This document shows positions 21,743-34,958 of a stretch of 35,398 nucleotides of DNA, piece after piece. The position numbers and the translations under genes were made by a program. The notes beneath the pieces are model-generated. The model had not been told where the DNA came from. It saw only the letters and a list, made by a program, of their open reading frames with translations, and searched no databases. How positions within the stretch are numbered: position 1 is the first letter of the stretch; each line of letters opens with the position of its first letter. The DNA comes from Candidatus Cloacimonadota bacterium (GTDB taxonomy: Bacteria; Cloacimonadota; Cloacimonadia; Cloacimonadales; JAMOQM01). Where the stretch lies: assembly GCA_027064005.1 (NCBI GenBank), contig JAMOQM010000073.1, positions 1-35,398 on the forward strand, written 5' to 3'.

Positions 21743-22024
21743 TTAATCGTCGTCATCATCAAAATCATCGTCATCATCATCTTCTTCTTCGTCTGACATC
21801 CAGTCAGGGCAAAACAATAAATCCTCGCTATAATCCCAACCATCGACAAATTCCAAACCGTATTGCATTAAAAGGCTTTCTTCCCAAAGAGAATAATAAA
21901 CAACTCCATCATCAATTTTATATACAAGAACAGGATGACTGTATTTTCTCAAATTATATTTTTCATTATTAATTAATTGGAAAAAATCTATAATTTTTTT
22001 CCGATCTTTTTCTGTTTTCATCAT
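21743..22024 (-). CDS. Small protein with poly-aspartate tail, unknown function
   Basis: 93 residues. The first ~75 look like a folded domain (KDRKKIIDFFQLINNEKYNLRKY, VYKIDDGVVYYSLWEES) with aromatic and cysteine residues; the last ~16 are almost all D and E. No signal peptide or membrane span, so it is probably cytosolic. GGGAG precedes the ATG; the start may be one codon later (two ATGs in tandem). It is 18 nt downstream of the barrel gene and just before the terminator, hence the last gene of the PgsBC operon. Not a family I recognise. Confidence 0.75.
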   Translation of the reverse strand: MMKTEKDRKKIIDFFQLINNEKYNLRKYSHPVLVYKIDDGVVYYSLWEESLLMQYGLEFVDGWDYSEDLLFCPDWMSDEEEDDDDDDFDDDDD

Positions 22025-22042: not shown

Positions 22043-23074
22043 TTATAGTGAGAAAGAGTATTTGAATCCTAAAGAAATTCCGTTAAGGTCATAATCTTTG
22101 ATATTACTCAGATTCTCATCAGTTGCACTAACTTTTCGAGAGGTGTTTGTGACGTCCAGAAAAATATTTGTATTGTTTAACAAATTATATTCGATTCCAA
22201 ATCCAAGATTGAGGATTTTATCTTTTCTCCCGCTGTGAATCGGGTCTAATGATTCATATAAATCTGTTGTAAAATAGCGTTGTTCAAAAGATGCGGAAGC
22301 TTTAATTCTCAGGTATTTAGGGAACAACTTTTTAATTTTTTTTGATTGGATTTTCAAAGAATAGATATTACTTTCGTATTGGGGATCTCTGACATATCCT
22401 GAATAACTTTCCGGTGATAAAATAGAATCGTTACCTTCAAATTTTATATAAGAATATTTCATTTTTAAATAAAACGGTTTGAATGAATGTTTAAATCCCA
22501 AGCTACCCGAAAGTTTATTGCCGTCATATTCGGTGAAATATTTATTATAGTAGAGTTGAGCAAAAGATGCGTCAAATAGGATGAAATTTTTACCGTTGAT
22601 TTTATAAAAGCCGTTCATTGTATATTTTTGTTTATCATATTGATAATCTTCATATTTTCCGGTTCCGTCATGATCTATATATTTGCGGACAAATATTTTA
22701 GGATAATATGAATAAGAATAAGTCATGCTTAATTTATCCAAATATTTTTTACTTATTCCAATCTTAAATGAAGTAGTCGATTTCAGATTATTTTCAATAA
22801 AATTATGCTGATGAACAGAGAAAAACGGTGATATTTTGAAATTCTTAAATTTTAATTTTCCGGAAACATTAAAGTAGGAATTTATTATTAAATCATCTTT
22901 TGTTTCGATATAAGAAAAGGCATTATTTCCGTCATTAAATTTATCAATATCTTGTGATGAAAGATGATACGGATTGTCAGTATATTTAGTAGATACTCCG
23001 AAGCTTATATTGGTTTTGGCATAAATAAATGTGGAGAAAATCATCATTAAAAACAAAGGGTAAATTTTTTTCAT
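22043..23074 (-). CDS. Probable outer-membrane beta-barrel protein in the PGA operon
   Basis: 343 residues with a signal peptide (1-19, ending TFIYAK). The mature part is made of alternating hydrophobic/polar stretches rich in Y, F, S, K and N with strands such as KLSMTYSYSYYPKIFV, KPFYLKMKYSYIKFEG and LRIKASASFEQRYF, and ends GISLGFKYSFSL, all in keeping with an outer-membrane beta-barrel of about 14-16 strands. No named family is recognised. It follows the basic secreted protein by 11 nt in the pgsBC operon, so a role as an exit channel or anchor for the polymer is a reasonable inference. Confidence 0.75.
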   Translation of the reverse strand: MKKIYPLFLMMIFSTFIYAKTNISFGVSTKYTDNPYHLSSQDIDKFNDGNNAFSYIETKDDLIINSYFNVSGKLKFKNFKISPFFSVHQHNFIENNLKSTTSFKIGISKKYLDKLSMTYSYSYYPKIFVRKYIDHDGTGKYEDYQYDKQKYTMNGFYKINGKNFILFDASFAQLYYNKYFTEYDGNKLSGSLGFKHSFKPFYLKMKYSYIKFEGNDSILSPESYSGYVRDPQYESNIYSLKIQSKKIKKLFPKYLRIKASASFEQRYFTTDLYESLDPIHSGRKDKILNLGFGIEYNLLNNTNIFLDVTNTSRKVSATDENLSNIKDYDLNGISLGFKYSFSL

Positions 23075-23085
23075 ATTAATTCCTA

Positions 23086-23886
23086 TTATTTATTTAATCT
23101 GAAGAATATTTCTGTGTCTGAAATCGGTTGAAAAGTCAGAACGTGTTTTCCTGAAGATAGACTAATCGTAAACTTTTTACCTCGAGAAAGAGGTTGTTTA
23201 TGCAAAGAATATTTTTTGGAAATCTTTTGAGGGATAGAAATTGTCTTAACTTTTTTCCCATCAATTAAGATGTTGAATTTAACTTCATTATTGGGATTTA
23301 ATAAGGATTTTGCGTAACCGATAATTTCGCCGTTAATTCCGTTCAAAGTGTAAATTACGGGAATTTTTTTATTTCCACCAAAGAAAGTAATTCGTTTTTC
23401 AGAAGAAATATTTTTTATGAAAACAACATTTTTACTTTTAGATGCTTTGTAGCTTTTAGTAGAGATTTTTTTCTTGCTTTCTCTAAATATCCTAAAGTAA
23501 GCATTGCGGTTATTCGTATTAATTCTAATAAGATGTTTACCGGGATTGAGATTTAGTTTTATCGGTTCAAAAATCCAATATTTTCCAACTTGTTTTTTGG
23601 GTGCAATTGTGTAATTTTTGGCAATATTATCAATTGCGATTGTAAAAGACACAGGCTTTCCTTCTTTTTTTTCGATAATTTCCACTTTGATGATTTTTTG
23701 TCGTGAAATCTCAATTGAAAGAAAATCATCTTTTTCAGATCGGTAGAAATAATATTTTTTCTGACCTTGCTTAATCAGACGTTTTGTCCCTTTTTTGATA
23801 AATTTAAGAGGTGTCCATTTTTGATTATTTGCAGCGAAAATATTCAAAGTAAAAATCAGGATGAGTAGAGTTAAATATTTTTTCAT
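23086..23886 (-). CDS. Strongly basic secreted protein in the PGA operon
   Basis: 266 residues. Signal peptide 1-18 (MKKYLTLLILIFTLNIFA). The mature protein is predicted to be beta-rich and carries about twice as many K/R as D/E residues (for example FIKKGTKRLIKQGQKKYYFYR and FRESKKKISTKSYKASKSK). It contains repeated LNPGKHLIRI- and LSSGKHVLTF-like segments, each in a strand-turn-strand setting, hinting at duplicated beta domains. The ATG follows the stop of pgsW directly, with GGAG inside the end of pgsW. Function unknown; in an operon making a polyanion, a periplasmic polymer-binding role is the simplest guess. Confidence 0.75.
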   Translation of the reverse strand: MKKYLTLLILIFTLNIFAANNQKWTPLKFIKKGTKRLIKQGQKKYYFYRSEKDDFLSIEISRQKIIKVEIIEKKEGKPVSFTIAIDNIAKNYTIAPKKQVGKYWIFEPIKLNLNPGKHLIRINTNNRNAYFRIFRESKKKISTKSYKASKSKNVVFIKNISSEKRITFFGGNKKIPVIYTLNGINGEIIGYAKSLLNPNNEVKFNILIDGKKVKTISIPQKISKKYSLHKQPLSRGKKFTISLSSGKHVLTFQPISDTEIFFRLNK

Positions 23887-25008
23887 TTATAACTCCTGAT
23901 CCGGATCAATGATATTATTTACGATATGTCTCTGTTTTCTATCGATACTAATTAAAACAAAAATAATGATTAGCAGGATTGTCAAACATACGGAAGCAAC
24001 AGTTACATTAAGTATTTTAGATGAGAATATTTTACCGACTCCGACTTTTGGAATTGATTCCGGAGCGATTTCCAAATCATATTTTTTTGCCAAATCGTTT
24101 GCTCTGTAAACGTGAATAATCGGAGTATTTTTCATCGCGAATTTCATAATAACATTTTCTTTAGGAAGTTTTTTATCAGCCAAATTAAAATGAACACCGG
24201 TTTTTATGATTTTTGCAGTAAGATAATTCCCAACATTTGTTACGCCGGTTCCGATGTTTATGAAAGCTTTGATTTTTTTATTTTTAGGAACATTTTCCAA
24301 ATAAATCTTCATTCGTTTATTGATATTTTCATCCAAAGATTTTTCTTTAATAAATTCTACATTATTGCGTTTTATAGCTTCTTCAATTAATTTCCTTCCT
24401 TCTGAAGATAGTCCGCGTCCGATATCTTTACCGCCACCAAGACTGGCAGCAACGCTTTTGAAATTTATCAATTTATGTTTGTATAAAACCGATTCCATAT
24501 CTAAAAAAGTAAAATCCTCTCTATTCGCTCCGAATTGAGAAGAGCCTACTGAAGAAATAATAATAGGATGCAGTTTCAGAGTTTTAATTGCTGCATATAA
24601 AGCTAAATTTTCTCCGGGGTTTGCACCGGTCAAACCAACTGCAACGTAATCACCCTTTGAAAGTTTTGCTTTTTTTAATAATGAAACAAAAGCTGCGGAG
24701 ATATTTGGATTTAAAGCCGTTAGTTTATCGGAAATGATTCCCGGACTTGTAGTAATTTCGCTATAATTAAGTCCGATTAATCCTGTTTGATTGGGGTCAT
24801 TTGTCTTATCGATTTTCAAATTTCTTTTAATAGCTTCTTCTTTCAGAATAGATAAAAAGTTATTCATTAGCTTTGCTGATTCAATTTTTTTATTATAGTG
24901 TTTTGCTTTTACAATACGATGACTTGTCTGAGAAATATAAAATAATCCTACAGAAAAAATAGCCATTACAACTAAAGTCCATAATGATCTTAATGATGGT
25001 CTAAACAT
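23887..25008 (-). CDS. pgsW: Poly-gamma-glutamate system protein PgsW
   Basis: 373 residues. An N-terminal membrane span (LWTLVVMAIFSVGLFYI, about 8-26) and a C-terminal one (VASVCLTILLIIIFVLISI, about 335-355) enclose a ~300-residue domain with GLTGANPGENLALYAAIK, SSVGSSQFGANR, SLGGGKDIGRGLS and INIGTGVTNVGN. This pattern fits the poly-gamma-glutamate system protein family that accompanies PgsB and PgsC in some diderms (PgsW), in place of the capsule retention PgsA. ATG 25008 is chosen, with GAGG 9 nt upstream and an 8-nt overlap with the end of pgsC; the longer frame begins at a GTG inside pgsC. Confidence 0.85.
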   Translation of the reverse strand: MFRPSLRSLWTLVVMAIFSVGLFYISQTSHRIVKAKHYNKKIESAKLMNNFLSILKEEAIKRNLKIDKTNDPNQTGLIGLNYSEITTSPGIISDKLTALNPNISAAFVSLLKKAKLSKGDYVAVGLTGANPGENLALYAAIKTLKLHPIIISSVGSSQFGANREDFTFLDMESVLYKHKLINFKSVAASLGGGKDIGRGLSSEGRKLIEEAIKRNNVEFIKEKSLDENINKRMKIYLENVPKNKKIKAFINIGTGVTNVGNYLTAKIIKTGVHFNLADKKLPKENVIMKFAMKNTPIIHVYRANDLAKKYDLEIAPESIPKVGVGKIFSSKILNVTVASVCLTILLIIIFVLISIDRKQRHIVNNIIDPDQEL

Positions 25009-25456
25009 TAAAACTAACCTCCCCACCGGAAATGATTGTTAAAATTAATCTAACAATTACTGCGGCAATTAACATTACGGAAATAGTTTTTACAACGCCT
25101 TGTCTTTCCATCCAATTGGCAATTAATCCCGGGATAATGTATCCGATTGATTGAAGGTCTAAATCATAAATTGAGAGACTTCCAAAAACTATATTTCTTG
25201 ATAACCATCCGAAAATAAAACCGAATAAAATTGCGAGAACCATTCTTCTCTTTCCATATAACAGCGTAAACATGGAAATAATTTTAATTACACCTAAAGT
25301 AAGTAAACTAACTAAAAGAGTTCCGATAATTTGCATAGGATGATCCAAATACATTGCAATATATCCGGGGACAACAATTCCACCGGCAGATGCACCTAAA
25401 AGTTCATTAAAAAGTAAGCTGATTATTACACCAAGCCCAACAGCAGCCTCGACCAT
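25001..25456 (-). CDS. pgsC: Poly-gamma-glutamate synthase membrane subunit PgsC/CapC
   Basis: 151 residues, usual for PgsC. Four to five membrane spans; the signature GASAGGIVVPGYIAMYLDHP follows the first span, and YIIPGLIANWMERQGV the later loop. PgsC pairs with PgsB to polymerise glutamate and move the chain through the inner membrane. The ATG directly follows the TAA of pgsB and the 3' end overlaps pgsW by 8 nt, so translation is tightly coupled. Ribosome binding site GGGAGG. Confidence 0.95.
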   Translation of the reverse strand: MVEAAVGLGVIISLLFNELLGASAGGIVVPGYIAMYLDHPMQIIGTLLVSLLTLGVIKIISMFTLLYGKRRMVLAILFGFIFGWLSRNIVFGSLSIYDLDLQSIGYIIPGLIANWMERQGVVKTISVMLIAAVIVRLILTIISGGEVSFNV

Positions 25457-26635
25457 TTATTTACCTCCCAAGGATTTTTCTTTGAAATATTTTACTATTT
25501 GACCACCATATTTTCTAGCTCCGGCAATATTTCCGATTCCGACAATATGTGATTCTTTTATGGTTAATTCTTTAATTTTATCAAAAAGGATATTTGTTTC
25601 CAATTCCCCCAATTCTCTCAATTTTTTTTCATCAATTTTTCTTTTCAAAGCATCTTTATAAAGCTGTTCGGTTCTTTCTCCGGTTAGAAGCAGATAATCA
25701 AAATCCAATTCTGCACAAACATCAAGAAGTTGGATTGAACGAAAATATCTGTCCGCTCTGGAATTTAAAATAATGATTTTTTGTTGTCCGGATTTAAGAT
25801 GACTGATGATATTGAGCCAAATCATTTTTGTTGAATCAGGATCATTGGCAGCGAAAACATTATAAAATACAATTTTTTTATTATTTTCTTCGACTGTATA
25901 TTTTTTCAAAGCACCCGGATCCGGTTGCATTTCCTGCATTCCCTTTAGAGCAACATCTCGCGGGACTCCAATTTTTTTACAGATTTCCAAAGATAAAGCA
26001 ACGTTATCAGGATGTTCAATATATCTAAAACCTTCCATTTCTTCAGGAGATATTTCGGTTGGTGAGATAGAGTGAATTTCCGTATTTCTTTTTTTAGCTA
26101 CATCTTCCATTGTTTTAAATTGTTCACGTTCTGAAGTATAGCAAACGCCATTATCCGGAATAGTATTACACAAACATTTTGTAACGCTCTCAATTGTTTC
26201 TCCCATCAAATCAAGATGGTCCAAGCGAGAATTTGTTATAACGGAAATTGTGGATTGAACAAATTTTCTCTCAGTTATCCATTGTAAAACAGGATTTACA
26301 GCCATACATTCAATAACGATAGCATCCGGATTTTTTGCGGCAGCATAGCGAAAAATATATTTTTGTTCAATGATATTTGCACCTGCTAATCTAATAATTG
26401 CCGACTCAGTTCCATCTTCATGAATTACTCTTGGAAGAGTTCCGGTTGTTTTTGCAATAGTTTTCAATCCTCCGGCTCTCAAACCGGCTGAAATTAATCT
26501 GGTAACACTTGATTTTCCACGTGTACCGTTTACATGAACTCTGACAGGGATTTTTTTTATATTTCTATAATGCCTTAAATATTCAATAATCCAGAAGATT
26601 ATCAAAGCGAGAGTGGCAAAAATTAATATCAGCAT
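25457..26635 (-). CDS. pgsB: Poly-gamma-glutamate synthase PgsB/CapB
   Basis: 392 residues, normal for PgsB. An N-terminal membrane anchor (about 1-18) is followed by a Mur-ligase-type ATP site VHVNGTRGKSSVTRLI, then KTTGTLPR, ECMAVNPVLQW and VITNSRLDHLDLMG, all diagnostic. It activates the gamma-carboxylate of glutamate with ATP and adds the next residue, working with PgsC. First gene of a six-gene operon. GGA precedes the ATG. No PgsA/CapA-type protein or gamma-glutamyl hydrolase is found in the window. Confidence 0.96.
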   Translation of the reverse strand: MLILIFATLALIIFWIIEYLRHYRNIKKIPVRVHVNGTRGKSSVTRLISAGLRAGGLKTIAKTTGTLPRVIHEDGTESAIIRLAGANIIEQKYIFRYAAAKNPDAIVIECMAVNPVLQWITERKFVQSTISVITNSRLDHLDLMGETIESVTKCLCNTIPDNGVCYTSEREQFKTMEDVAKKRNTEIHSISPTEISPEEMEGFRYIEHPDNVALSLEICKKIGVPRDVALKGMQEMQPDPGALKKYTVEENNKKIVFYNVFAANDPDSTKMIWLNIISHLKSGQQKIIILNSRADRYFRSIQLLDVCAELDFDYLLLTGERTEQLYKDALKRKIDEKKLRELGELETNILFDKIKELTIKESHIVGIGNIAGARKYGGQIVKYFKEKSLGGK

Positions 26636-32717: not shown

Positions 32718-34958
32718 ATGTTTTTCAATAGGAAAAAAATATTTTTCCCAATAATGCTTATGTTATTATCAATAAGCTTTTTATCAGCAAATAATATTAT
32801 TCTGAAAATTAATATTAAAGGGAATAGGAATATTGAGACAAATCTCATTACTTCCGTTCTAACTTTCGGGGTCGGTGATGAATTGGATCAAGAGAAAGTT
32901 AGCAAATCAATAAAAAATTTATATAACTTGAATATCTTTTCCGATATTACTGTAGATGCGGAACCATTGGAGTCCGGTGTAGAAATTGATATCGCTTTAA
33001 AAGAATTCCCAATCATTAATAATATCAAAATCGAGGGGAATAAAAAACTTTCTGATGATAAGATTGAAGAATTAATGACAATTCATAAAGAAAGTTATTT
33101 GGCACCTTATCTTGAGAAAGAAACTACAAGAAAAATAAAAGAAGAATATCGAAAGAAAATGTATAACCTTGCTAAAATCAATTATAAGACTAAGAAAATT
33201 GATGCTACTCATGTTGATTTAATAATATCTATTGAAGAAGGTAAAAAGGTTTCTATTAAAAAAATAGATATTTTGGGTAATAAACAAGTCAAAACAAAAA
33301 AAATATTAGGATTAATGAAAACTAAAAGATCCAGTCTTTTTAGGTCAGGGAAATTTGAAAAAGATAAATTTGAAGCTGATCTTGATAAAATTATTTCCTA
33401 TTATAATAAAAACGGATTTATGGATGCCAGAATTGTTTCTCATCAAATTGACAATATCAATCCGACTTCTTTGAAAATTACCATCGTTATTTCGGAAGGG
33501 AAAAAATATTATTTTGGGAAAATTACAGTTGAAGGAAATAAAAAATTTCCGGATGAGACAATTATCTCAAAATTCAGATTTAAAAATCACGAAGTTTTTA
33601 ATCAGGAAAAATATCAAAAACAACTGACCGAAGTCTATTCATTATATCATGAAGAAGGTTTTATTTATGCTAAATTTGATCAGGAATTTATTAAAAACGG
33701 TGATATCGTAAATATAAAATTAAAAATTACCGAAAATGTTCGAGCCAAAATTCATAAAATCTTAATATCGGGAAATAAAAAAACTAAAGAAAAAATCATT
33801 CGTCGCCAACTTGCAATTTCACCCGGAGATTATTTCAGACAGTCAAAAATAGTTAAATCTCAGCAAAATATATACAATATGGGATTTTTTGAGCCTGACA
33901 TCGCTCTCGATTATCAACCGATTAATTCAAAAGGCGATATTGATTTATCTATCAAAGTTAACGATAAAACTTCAGGAACTGCAAACGGTGGAGTTGGTTA
34001 TAATAGTCAGGATCATTTTGTGGGACAATTTACAATTTCTCATAACAATTTATTTGGTAATGCCTGGAAATCAGCATTAAAATGGGAATTTGGAGGATCG
34101 ACTCAAAACTTTACTTTCTCATTTACAAATCCTTATCTTTTCGATTCAAACACTTTGGCAGGATTCCATATTTATGACACAAATAAAGAATGGAGCTCAT
34201 TCAATTATAAACTTCAGACAGTCGGTGGAGGAATTACTCTCGGTCGGAGTTTATATTTGTTAAATTATTCTAAAATGACAATTGGATATTCTTTATATAC
34301 AAAAAAATATCAAATTATCGACAAAAGCGAAACAGATATCTCAGACAATTTGACAAGATTAGATAGTCTCGGATGGCAATATACAAGTTCCGTAAACGTC
34401 TCATTCTCAAGAGATTCAAGAGACAATTTCTTTTTTCCAACAAATGGTTCCCAGTTATATTTGTACTCCGAAATTGCCGGAAAAGCATTGGGCGGAGATT
34501 TTAATTATTTTAAGCAAATCGCTCAAGTAAGTTGGTACACAAAACTTATCTGGAAATTCTCTCTGAGAAATAAATGGAGATTTGGATACGTTACCGGTTT
34601 AGGGAATAATAACACAATTCCACCGGATATTAGATTTTATTTAGGTGGAACCGGACCTGACGGGATTCGTGGTTTTGCCGATCGTTCTATTGGACCAAGT
34701 GATGGCGGTTTACGTGAAATTATTTATTCTTCGGAAGTTGCATTTCCAATTGCCGGTGAACAAATTATCGGTTTAGGATTTTTTGATTCGGGAAATAGTT
34801 TTAATAAATTAGAAAATTTCAATTTTCTTGATTTTAAAAAAGGAACCGGAGTTGGAATTCGCGTGAGAAGTCCTTTCGGTTTAATAGGTTTTGATTATGC
34901 CTATAATTTGAATGATAAAAAATGGGAACCGCATTTCCAATTCGGAACAACGTTTTAG
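32718..34958 (+). CDS. bamA: Outer-membrane protein assembly factor BamA
   Basis: 746 residues. Signal peptide 1-24, then five POTRA domains (about 25-410; each with a pattern like IKIEGNKKLSDDKIEE, IDILGNKQVKTKKI, ITVEGNKKFPDETII, ILISGNKKTKEKIIRRQL), and a C-terminal Omp85 barrel (about 420-746). The loop-6 motif is seen as GGTGPDGIRGFADRSIGP (V/IRGF), followed by the terminal strand ending FQFGTTF, with the C-terminal aromatic residue typical of outer-membrane proteins. It inserts barrel proteins into the outer membrane and shows the cell is diderm. CGGAGG precedes the ATG by 6 nt. No skp or lptD neighbours in the window. Confidence 0.96.
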   Translation: MFFNRKKIFFPIMLMLLSISFLSANNIILKINIKGNRNIETNLITSVLTFGVGDELDQEKVSKSIKNLYNLNIFSDITVDAEPLESGVEIDIALKEFPIINNIKIEGNKKLSDDKIEELMTIHKESYLAPYLEKETTRKIKEEYRKKMYNLAKINYKTKKIDATHVDLIISIEEGKKVSIKKIDILGNKQVKTKKILGLMKTKRSSLFRSGKFEKDKFEADLDKIISYYNKNGFMDARIVSHQIDNINPTSLKITIVISEGKKYYFGKITVEGNKKFPDETIISKFRFKNHEVFNQEKYQKQLTEVYSLYHEEGFIYAKFDQEFIKNGDIVNIKLKITENVRAKIHKILISGNKKTKEKIIRRQLAISPGDYFRQSKIVKSQQNIYNMGFFEPDIALDYQPINSKGDIDLSIKVNDKTSGTANGGVGYNSQDHFVGQFTISHNNLFGNAWKSALKWEFGGSTQNFTFSFTNPYLFDSNTLAGFHIYDTNKEWSSFNYKLQTVGGGITLGRSLYLLNYSKMTIGYSLYTKKYQIIDKSETDISDNLTRLDSLGWQYTSSVNVSFSRDSRDNFFFPTNGSQLYLYSEIAGKALGGDFNYFKQIAQVSWYTKLIWKFSLRNKWRFGYVTGLGNNNTIPPDIRFYLGGTGPDGIRGFADRSIGPSDGGLREIIYSSEVAFPIAGEQIIGLGFFDSGNSFNKLENFNFLDFKKGTGVGIRVRSPFGLIGFDYAYNLNDKKWEPHFQFGTTF

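Follow-up and report, generated by a model that had tools for sequence, protein, structure and literature searches.

We report that poly-gamma-glutamate (PGA) loci of the Cloacimonadota encode a conserved component, here called X, which is a dedicated companion of the PGA genes in this phylum. We lean towards the reading that X is a periplasmic adaptor that would, together with the product of the neighboring gene Y, guide PGA from PgsBCW across the outer membrane. The window, that is, the whole stretch of DNA analyzed (35,398 nucleotides, contig JAMOQM010000073.1 of a Candidatus Cloacimonadota bacterium), carries the following genes:

25457..26635, minus strand: PgsB, poly-gamma-glutamate synthase (TIGR04012, 420.8 bits against a cut-off of 222.7)
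25001..25456, minus strand: PgsC (TIGR04011, 130.2 bits against a cut-off of 96.45)
23887..25026, minus strand: PgsW (TIGR04332, 314.3 bits against a cut-off of 100)
23086..23886, minus strand: X, strongly basic here, a predicted exported protein whose two halves (residues 22-141 and 142-266, approximately) are apparently related and putatively beta-sandwich-like
22043..23074, minus strand: Y, probable outer-membrane beta-barrel, from its signal-peptide-like start and the family matches of its relatives
21743..22024, minus strand: Z, short and acidic (pI 4.05), ending in a poly-Asp tail

PgsB, PgsC and PgsW all score above curated cut-offs, placing the locus with the PgsB/PgsC poly-gamma-glutamate synthases and the TIGR04332 family, and the polyanion synthase that the initial annotation had seen alongside X is indeed there. 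The X reading frame is real, encodes 266 aa and has a signal-peptide-like N-terminus; as had also been noticed, its ATG directly adjoins the stop of pgsW (pgsW ends at 23887, gap 0). The true start of pgsW is probably the internal ATG at 25008, because many relatives begin with M(F/Y)RPSL or MMYRPSL, and the listed GTG at 25026 would be too early. Neither X nor PgsW matched a CapA/PgsA-type family at E values up to 1, and a search of the genome for a CapD-like gamma-glutamyltranspeptidase found none.

The association of X with the PGA genes extends across the phylum. With the window X as query, 56 matches were found in 55 of 124 genomes, and each of the 56 starts no further than 1.5 kb downstream of a same-strand PgsW match. 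A second search, with a divergent type of X, returned 46 matches in 44 genomes, 43 of them again at most 1.5 kb downstream of PgsW on the same strand; the divergent type is present in 43 genomes, from families f10 and f13, and the search also touched the window-type gene of genome G060. The two types are homologous (hhalign E 2.8e-10 over 226 columns, and 1.7e-6 over 218 when other columns are used). Together, the 102 matches represent 100 genes, the G060 gene appearing in both searches and a broken gene in G115 being counted twice, and 99 of the 102 lie downstream of PgsW. The exceptions are one match in G068 and two in G069 (contigs C32 and C133); in G068 and on C32, X adjoins Y, and PgsW is missing or on another contig. 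Counted by genome, 97 have both X and PgsW, seven PgsW only, one X only and 19 neither. X is therefore found in 98 of the 124 genomes, that is, in 97 of the 104 with PgsW and in one of the 20 without it (G068, where X sits at a contig end). Close homologues in genomes lacking pgsBC had been raised as a point against a link to PGA; inside the phylum, 19 of the 20 genomes without PgsW are also without X. PgsB above the cut-off is present in 103 genomes and Y in 105.

The match on contig C133 is a stand-alone second divergent X (L131:2921-3802), with neither a pgs gene nor Y in the 7 kb read, and is the sole such case among the 102 matches.

We read 41 loci, which were selected for spread over families, so that the counts do not describe a random sample: 35 carry X (34 with Y), six lack it, and three (L086, L094 and L109) are incomplete. 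PgsW and X are separated by -23 to +107 bases in the loci read, the broken copy at L109 excepted. At that locus, PgsW and the N-terminal part of X lie in one 559-aa frame (L109:1054-2733) with X broken mid-way, which could reflect a genuine fusion or an error in sequencing. Directly after Y, Z is encoded at loci of families f1-f6, f8, f9 and f11; the f10 and f13 loci examined all lack it there. No X match passes the limit in seven of the 104 PgsW-bearing genomes, one of which (G051) encodes a 173-aa version of X. At five loci (L084, L085, L091, L104 and L105) Y directly follows PgsW with no X, and at L130 Y and Z lie apart from PgsW and X is missing. X is thus dispensable in places, which argues for an auxiliary rather than an essential role.

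X has no match among 72,556 plasmid records. Outside the phylum, a pattern scan returned one PgsW relative, in the Kosmotogales (L031), which have an outer sheath. The genes there run in the order PgsW-PgsB-PgsC (L031:5037-7701), neither X nor Y adjoining, and X and Y profiles found no match in that genome, an empty result of a kind that carries little weight.

Profile comparisons support a view of X as two related halves. The N- and C-terminal halves align with hhalign at E 6e-5 in the divergent type, at 5e-4 and 1.7e-4 across types, and at a weak 0.043-0.053 in the window type (29 of 30 X sequences, the truncated L023 left out). The internal duplication suspected in the initial annotation thus holds at profile level, for the divergent type and across types, and is weak for the window type taken alone; the GKHLIRI and GKHVLTF segments behind that suspicion are both present, one close to the end of each half. 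The 173-aa version of X at L090 (match E 7e-4) fits a duplication as well.

A single-sequence model of X is usable only over about residues 55-148 (from residue 149 the mean pLDDT is 50.7) and is, at low confidence, all beta outside the signal peptide and a single short helix. Within the top 1000 Foldseek chains, residues 51-152 best resemble TM1070 (1nc7, Z 7.6) and also resemble LecB, CBM35 and CBM6 at Z of about 5, a value that is common and no proof of kinship; phage and pilus domains appear among the rows too. The model suggests that the N half, and by inference the C half, is beta-sandwich-like. A fold matching an unrelated enzyme had been named as evidence against a PGA-related role; the N-half model points to small beta-sandwiches, with no recognised catalytic domain. 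No Pfam family matches window X over its cut-off, the C half giving weak signals to CE2_N (E 0.006, 17.1 bits against a cut-off of 27.9) and DUF6805 (E 0.028), and no TPR family was found for X or 24 relatives. Alignments of X also show conserved Tyr positions. We rejected an enzymatic role for X, given that the window protein matches only weakly, and to accessory domains (CE2_N, DUF6805 and GH115_C). Profile matches to PDB entries (1d2p, a collagen adhesin, E 0.0007 over 202-248; others from 0.02) are short and were set aside as chance or common beta repeats.

Y, which follows X, is about 340 aa long, has a signal-peptide-like start by a crude rule and is probably an outer-membrane beta-barrel, judging from its relatives. 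Of these, seven of 32 match OMP_b-brl (best E 2.5e-7) and five of 32 match BBP2_2; window Y matches neither at E 0.05. The last residue is Phe in 20 of the 32 relatives and Leu in window Y, which has a weak C-terminal match to EpsL (TIGR03014, E 6e-4, 19 bits against a cut-off of 275). The Y profile matched no solved barrel by sequence, and a single-sequence model of Y is poor (pLDDT 31.5, pTM 0.20). An outer membrane is probably present, since the genome has Omp85-family genes, the best of which (E 6.8e-50) is an Omp85/BamA-type outer-membrane assembly gene in the window, at 34047-34949. At three loci (L070, L071 and L072), X and Y are fused into a single protein of 639-642 aa that starts with the signal, continues with X and ends with the barrel. 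Barrel proteins with an N-terminal domain carry that domain on the periplasmic side, so the N-terminal place of X in these fusions makes a periplasmic location most likely.

In family f2, the Y reading frames of seven loci read carry a charged extension of about 35-60 residues before the signal sequence, with an RPIIL or PIIM motif recurring at the junction, reminiscent of an extended signal peptide:

L076:5376-6548, Y with extension
L077:6152-7306, Y with extension
L078:5572-6747, Y with extension
L079:6646-7797, Y with extension
L080:3105-4232, Y with extension
L081:5841-6974, Y with extension
L082:5082-6218, Y with extension

The clear excess of Lys and Arg that had first drawn attention to X is real: mature X (residue 19 on) has 54 K/R against 16 D/E (net charge +38, pI 10.3). 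In net charge per residue it ranks second of 45 signal-peptide-like reading frames of its own genome, 2.1 s.d. above their mean, and in basicity third of all 257 reading frames of at least 100 aa, over 312,622 bases (the window plus 20 stretches) and with signal-peptide-like starts called by a crude rule. The top of the 45 sampled is another window reading frame, of 126 aa (1346-1726).

A net positive charge is common, being found in 27 of 30 X proteins or X parts (median +17, pI 9.8; loci L070-L082 were left out of this set as repeats of genomes already present). By score, the three closest relatives are the X parts of the fusions, and these carry a net negative charge (-7, -7 and -13; -6, -10 and -12 with other boundaries); we therefore ruled out bulk charge complementarity as the conserved feature. 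At the 34 loci that encode both X and Y, the net charge of X is positive 25 times, zero twice and negative seven times. X is more basic than its own Y in 33 of these 34 (one tie), and more basic than the periplasmic part of PgsW in 32 of 35.

Individual basic positions are conserved instead. An alignment of 25 mature X sequences (the 30 minus L018, L020, L023, L027 and L030) has 12 columns that are at least 80% K/R and one that is at least 80% D/E. At the same threshold, Y has seven K/R and nine D/E columns, and the periplasmic part of PgsW eight and 13 (Fisher p 0.008 for X against Y and 0.003 against PgsW). These p-values are guides only, because the sequences are related and relatedness is uncorrected, and the Y alignment covers more families than the X alignment. 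The three net-negative relatives have K/R at all 12 conserved basic columns, and window X at 10 of them. When basic columns were picked from the other 22 sequences, the acidic three keep 12 of 16; they keep 17 other conserved X columns at 57%, a figure that requires identity and so is not strictly comparable. The divergent type shows a smaller basic excess, with 12 basic and eight acidic conserved columns after its signal. The two halves also have a basic position in common: columns 69 and 193 correspond in the window type, as do 67 and 195 in the divergent one, and when the types are aligned with each other 193 pairs with 195, with 69 and 67 offset by two residues. At these positions window X carries Glu (69) and Lys (193).

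Since relatives that are net negative keep their K/R columns, conservation lies in particular basic sites rather than in bulk charge. Such fixed residues fit a local surface that would bind a polyanion or a partner better than they fit bulk charge, and contact with PGA would be one use of it. Of the proposal that X is a charge-complementary partner of PGA, the dedicated companionship with PGA genes stands, and the high net charge proves not to be conserved.

Gene order, co-occurrence, the signal-peptide-like start, the X-Y fusion, the profile-level duplication and the conserved basic sites are computed results; we infer the periplasmic place of X (from its position in the fusions), Y as a pore, the fold of the C half, the contact with PGA and the direction of travel. 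In the model that we favor, synthesis of PGA at the inner membrane would fall to PgsB and PgsC, and PgsW would take the place of the usual CapA/PgsA. X, as two tandem beta-sandwich-like domains, would lie against the periplasmic face of the barrel Y, where its fixed Arg/Lys sites would guide the polyanion into Y and then out of the cell. Precedents are AlgE, in which a polyanion is described as passing through an electropositive pore (PMC4118822), and PelC, a periplasmic ring on the barrel PelB (PMC12141448).

In the main rival reading, X acts as a scaffold: it links PgsW to Y or aids the assembly of Y, makes no contact with the polymer and uses its basic residues to dock partners or lipid. 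In PelBC, a key charged residue first read as funnelling the polymer serves docking (PMC12141448); by analogy, the conserved basic residues of X may do the same. The X-Y fusion, the placing of X between PgsW and Y and its loss in places where Y stays all suit a scaffold. However, almost all conserved charges in window-type X are positive, as suits a polyanion, and docking alone leaves the greater basicity of X over Y (33 of 34 loci) unexplained, so that we hold a pure scaffold to be rather unlikely, though worth serious attention. We consider it improbable that X is a CBM-like glycan binder that anchors the export line to the wall through peptidoglycan or LPS. The likeness of the N half to LecB, CBM35 and CBM6, the weak CE2_N and DUF6805 signals of the C half and the conserved Tyr positions would agree with such a role, but Z values near 5 are common, the best fold row is TM1070, and the Pfam matches of window X stay below their cut-offs. 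CE2_N, moreover, appears in two of 25 relatives, and the best match overall is to an unrelated family, in one relative (E 0.0025).

The remaining alternatives concern charge itself, and to both we give very little credence. Closest to the initial annotation is the idea that X, once secreted to the cell surface, cross-links PGA into a polycation-polyanion matrix; the net charge of +38 here and the net positive charge of 27 of 30 X proteins or X parts are what it would predict, but the fusions of three genomes put X N-terminal to the barrel, which suggests the periplasmic side, and the closest relatives are acidic. The charge of X could also merely reflect a Lys-rich, A+T-rich genome: the G+C content of the window is 0.30, and PgsW is basic here (pI 9.9) and acidic (pI 4.9-5.3) in the three genomes with an acidic X. 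This explanation is already largely contradicted by the rank of X within its own genome (second of 45), by its excess over Y and PgsW in nearly all loci and by its 12 basic conserved columns against one acidic. We thus retain the adaptor model.

The conserved W-X-Y order provides named candidates that make the gap in PGA export by diderms testable. Synergistetes, Planctomycetes and Fusobacteria are bacteria with two membranes. PGA capsule genes have been reported in most phyla, including these three, and diderms need at least one further protein for PGA to cross the outer membrane; in the available part of the same source, the B. anthracis gene set CapABCDE comes with no named outer-membrane component or exporter (PMC5542703). 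PGA genes have been described in three Cloacimonadota genera (PMC8542988), and a 2026 paper describes a Cloacimonadota PGA operon of three genes, CapB, CapC and CapA/PgsF, with a Gram-positive-type organization (PMC13082233). That operon is probably the same locus, in the same phylum, as the one described here; the operon section of the paper describes no X, Y or Z, and its main text is without the terms "outer membrane" and "periplasm". Its authors speculate that PGA aids syntrophy in Cloacimonadota (PMC13082233), a phylum on which the adaptor model would, if true, bear. Among the literature matches listed (titles and abstract openings, mostly from outside subscription journals), none gives an outer-membrane route for PGA. 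Since neither these matches nor the available parts of the operon papers give such a route, X, Y and Z do not appear to have been described as components of PGA export; the kind of export line, with a synthase, a periplasmic part and a barrel, is known.

The locus shares PgsB and PgsC with the Bacillus capBCA/pgsBCA operons, and differs from them in having PgsW instead of CapA/PgsA and in the addition of X, Y and Z. Its proposed layout, an inner-membrane synthase with a periplasmic part and a barrel, is like that of AlgK/AlgE, PgaA, BcsC and PelB/PelC, in which the periplasmic part and the barrel are sometimes one chain. Unlike in these exopolysaccharide exporters, X has no TPR match, the polymer is a poly-amino acid, and the Y profile matches no solved barrel. 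Among barrel families, window Y is weakly similar to EpsL, and some of its relatives match BBP2_2 and OMP_b-brl. The modest-confidence model of the X N half is like CBM35/CBM6, LecB and TM1070 (Z 5-7.6), with no sequence match over cut-off. More tentatively than the adaptor role itself, we put forward as a possibility that a tandem beta-sandwich X with fixed Arg/Lys sites stands in for the TPR scaffold known from exopolysaccharide systems and passes PGA on to Y as a dedicated barrel; such trans-envelope secretion of a poly-amino acid would explain how PGA leaves bacteria with two membranes.
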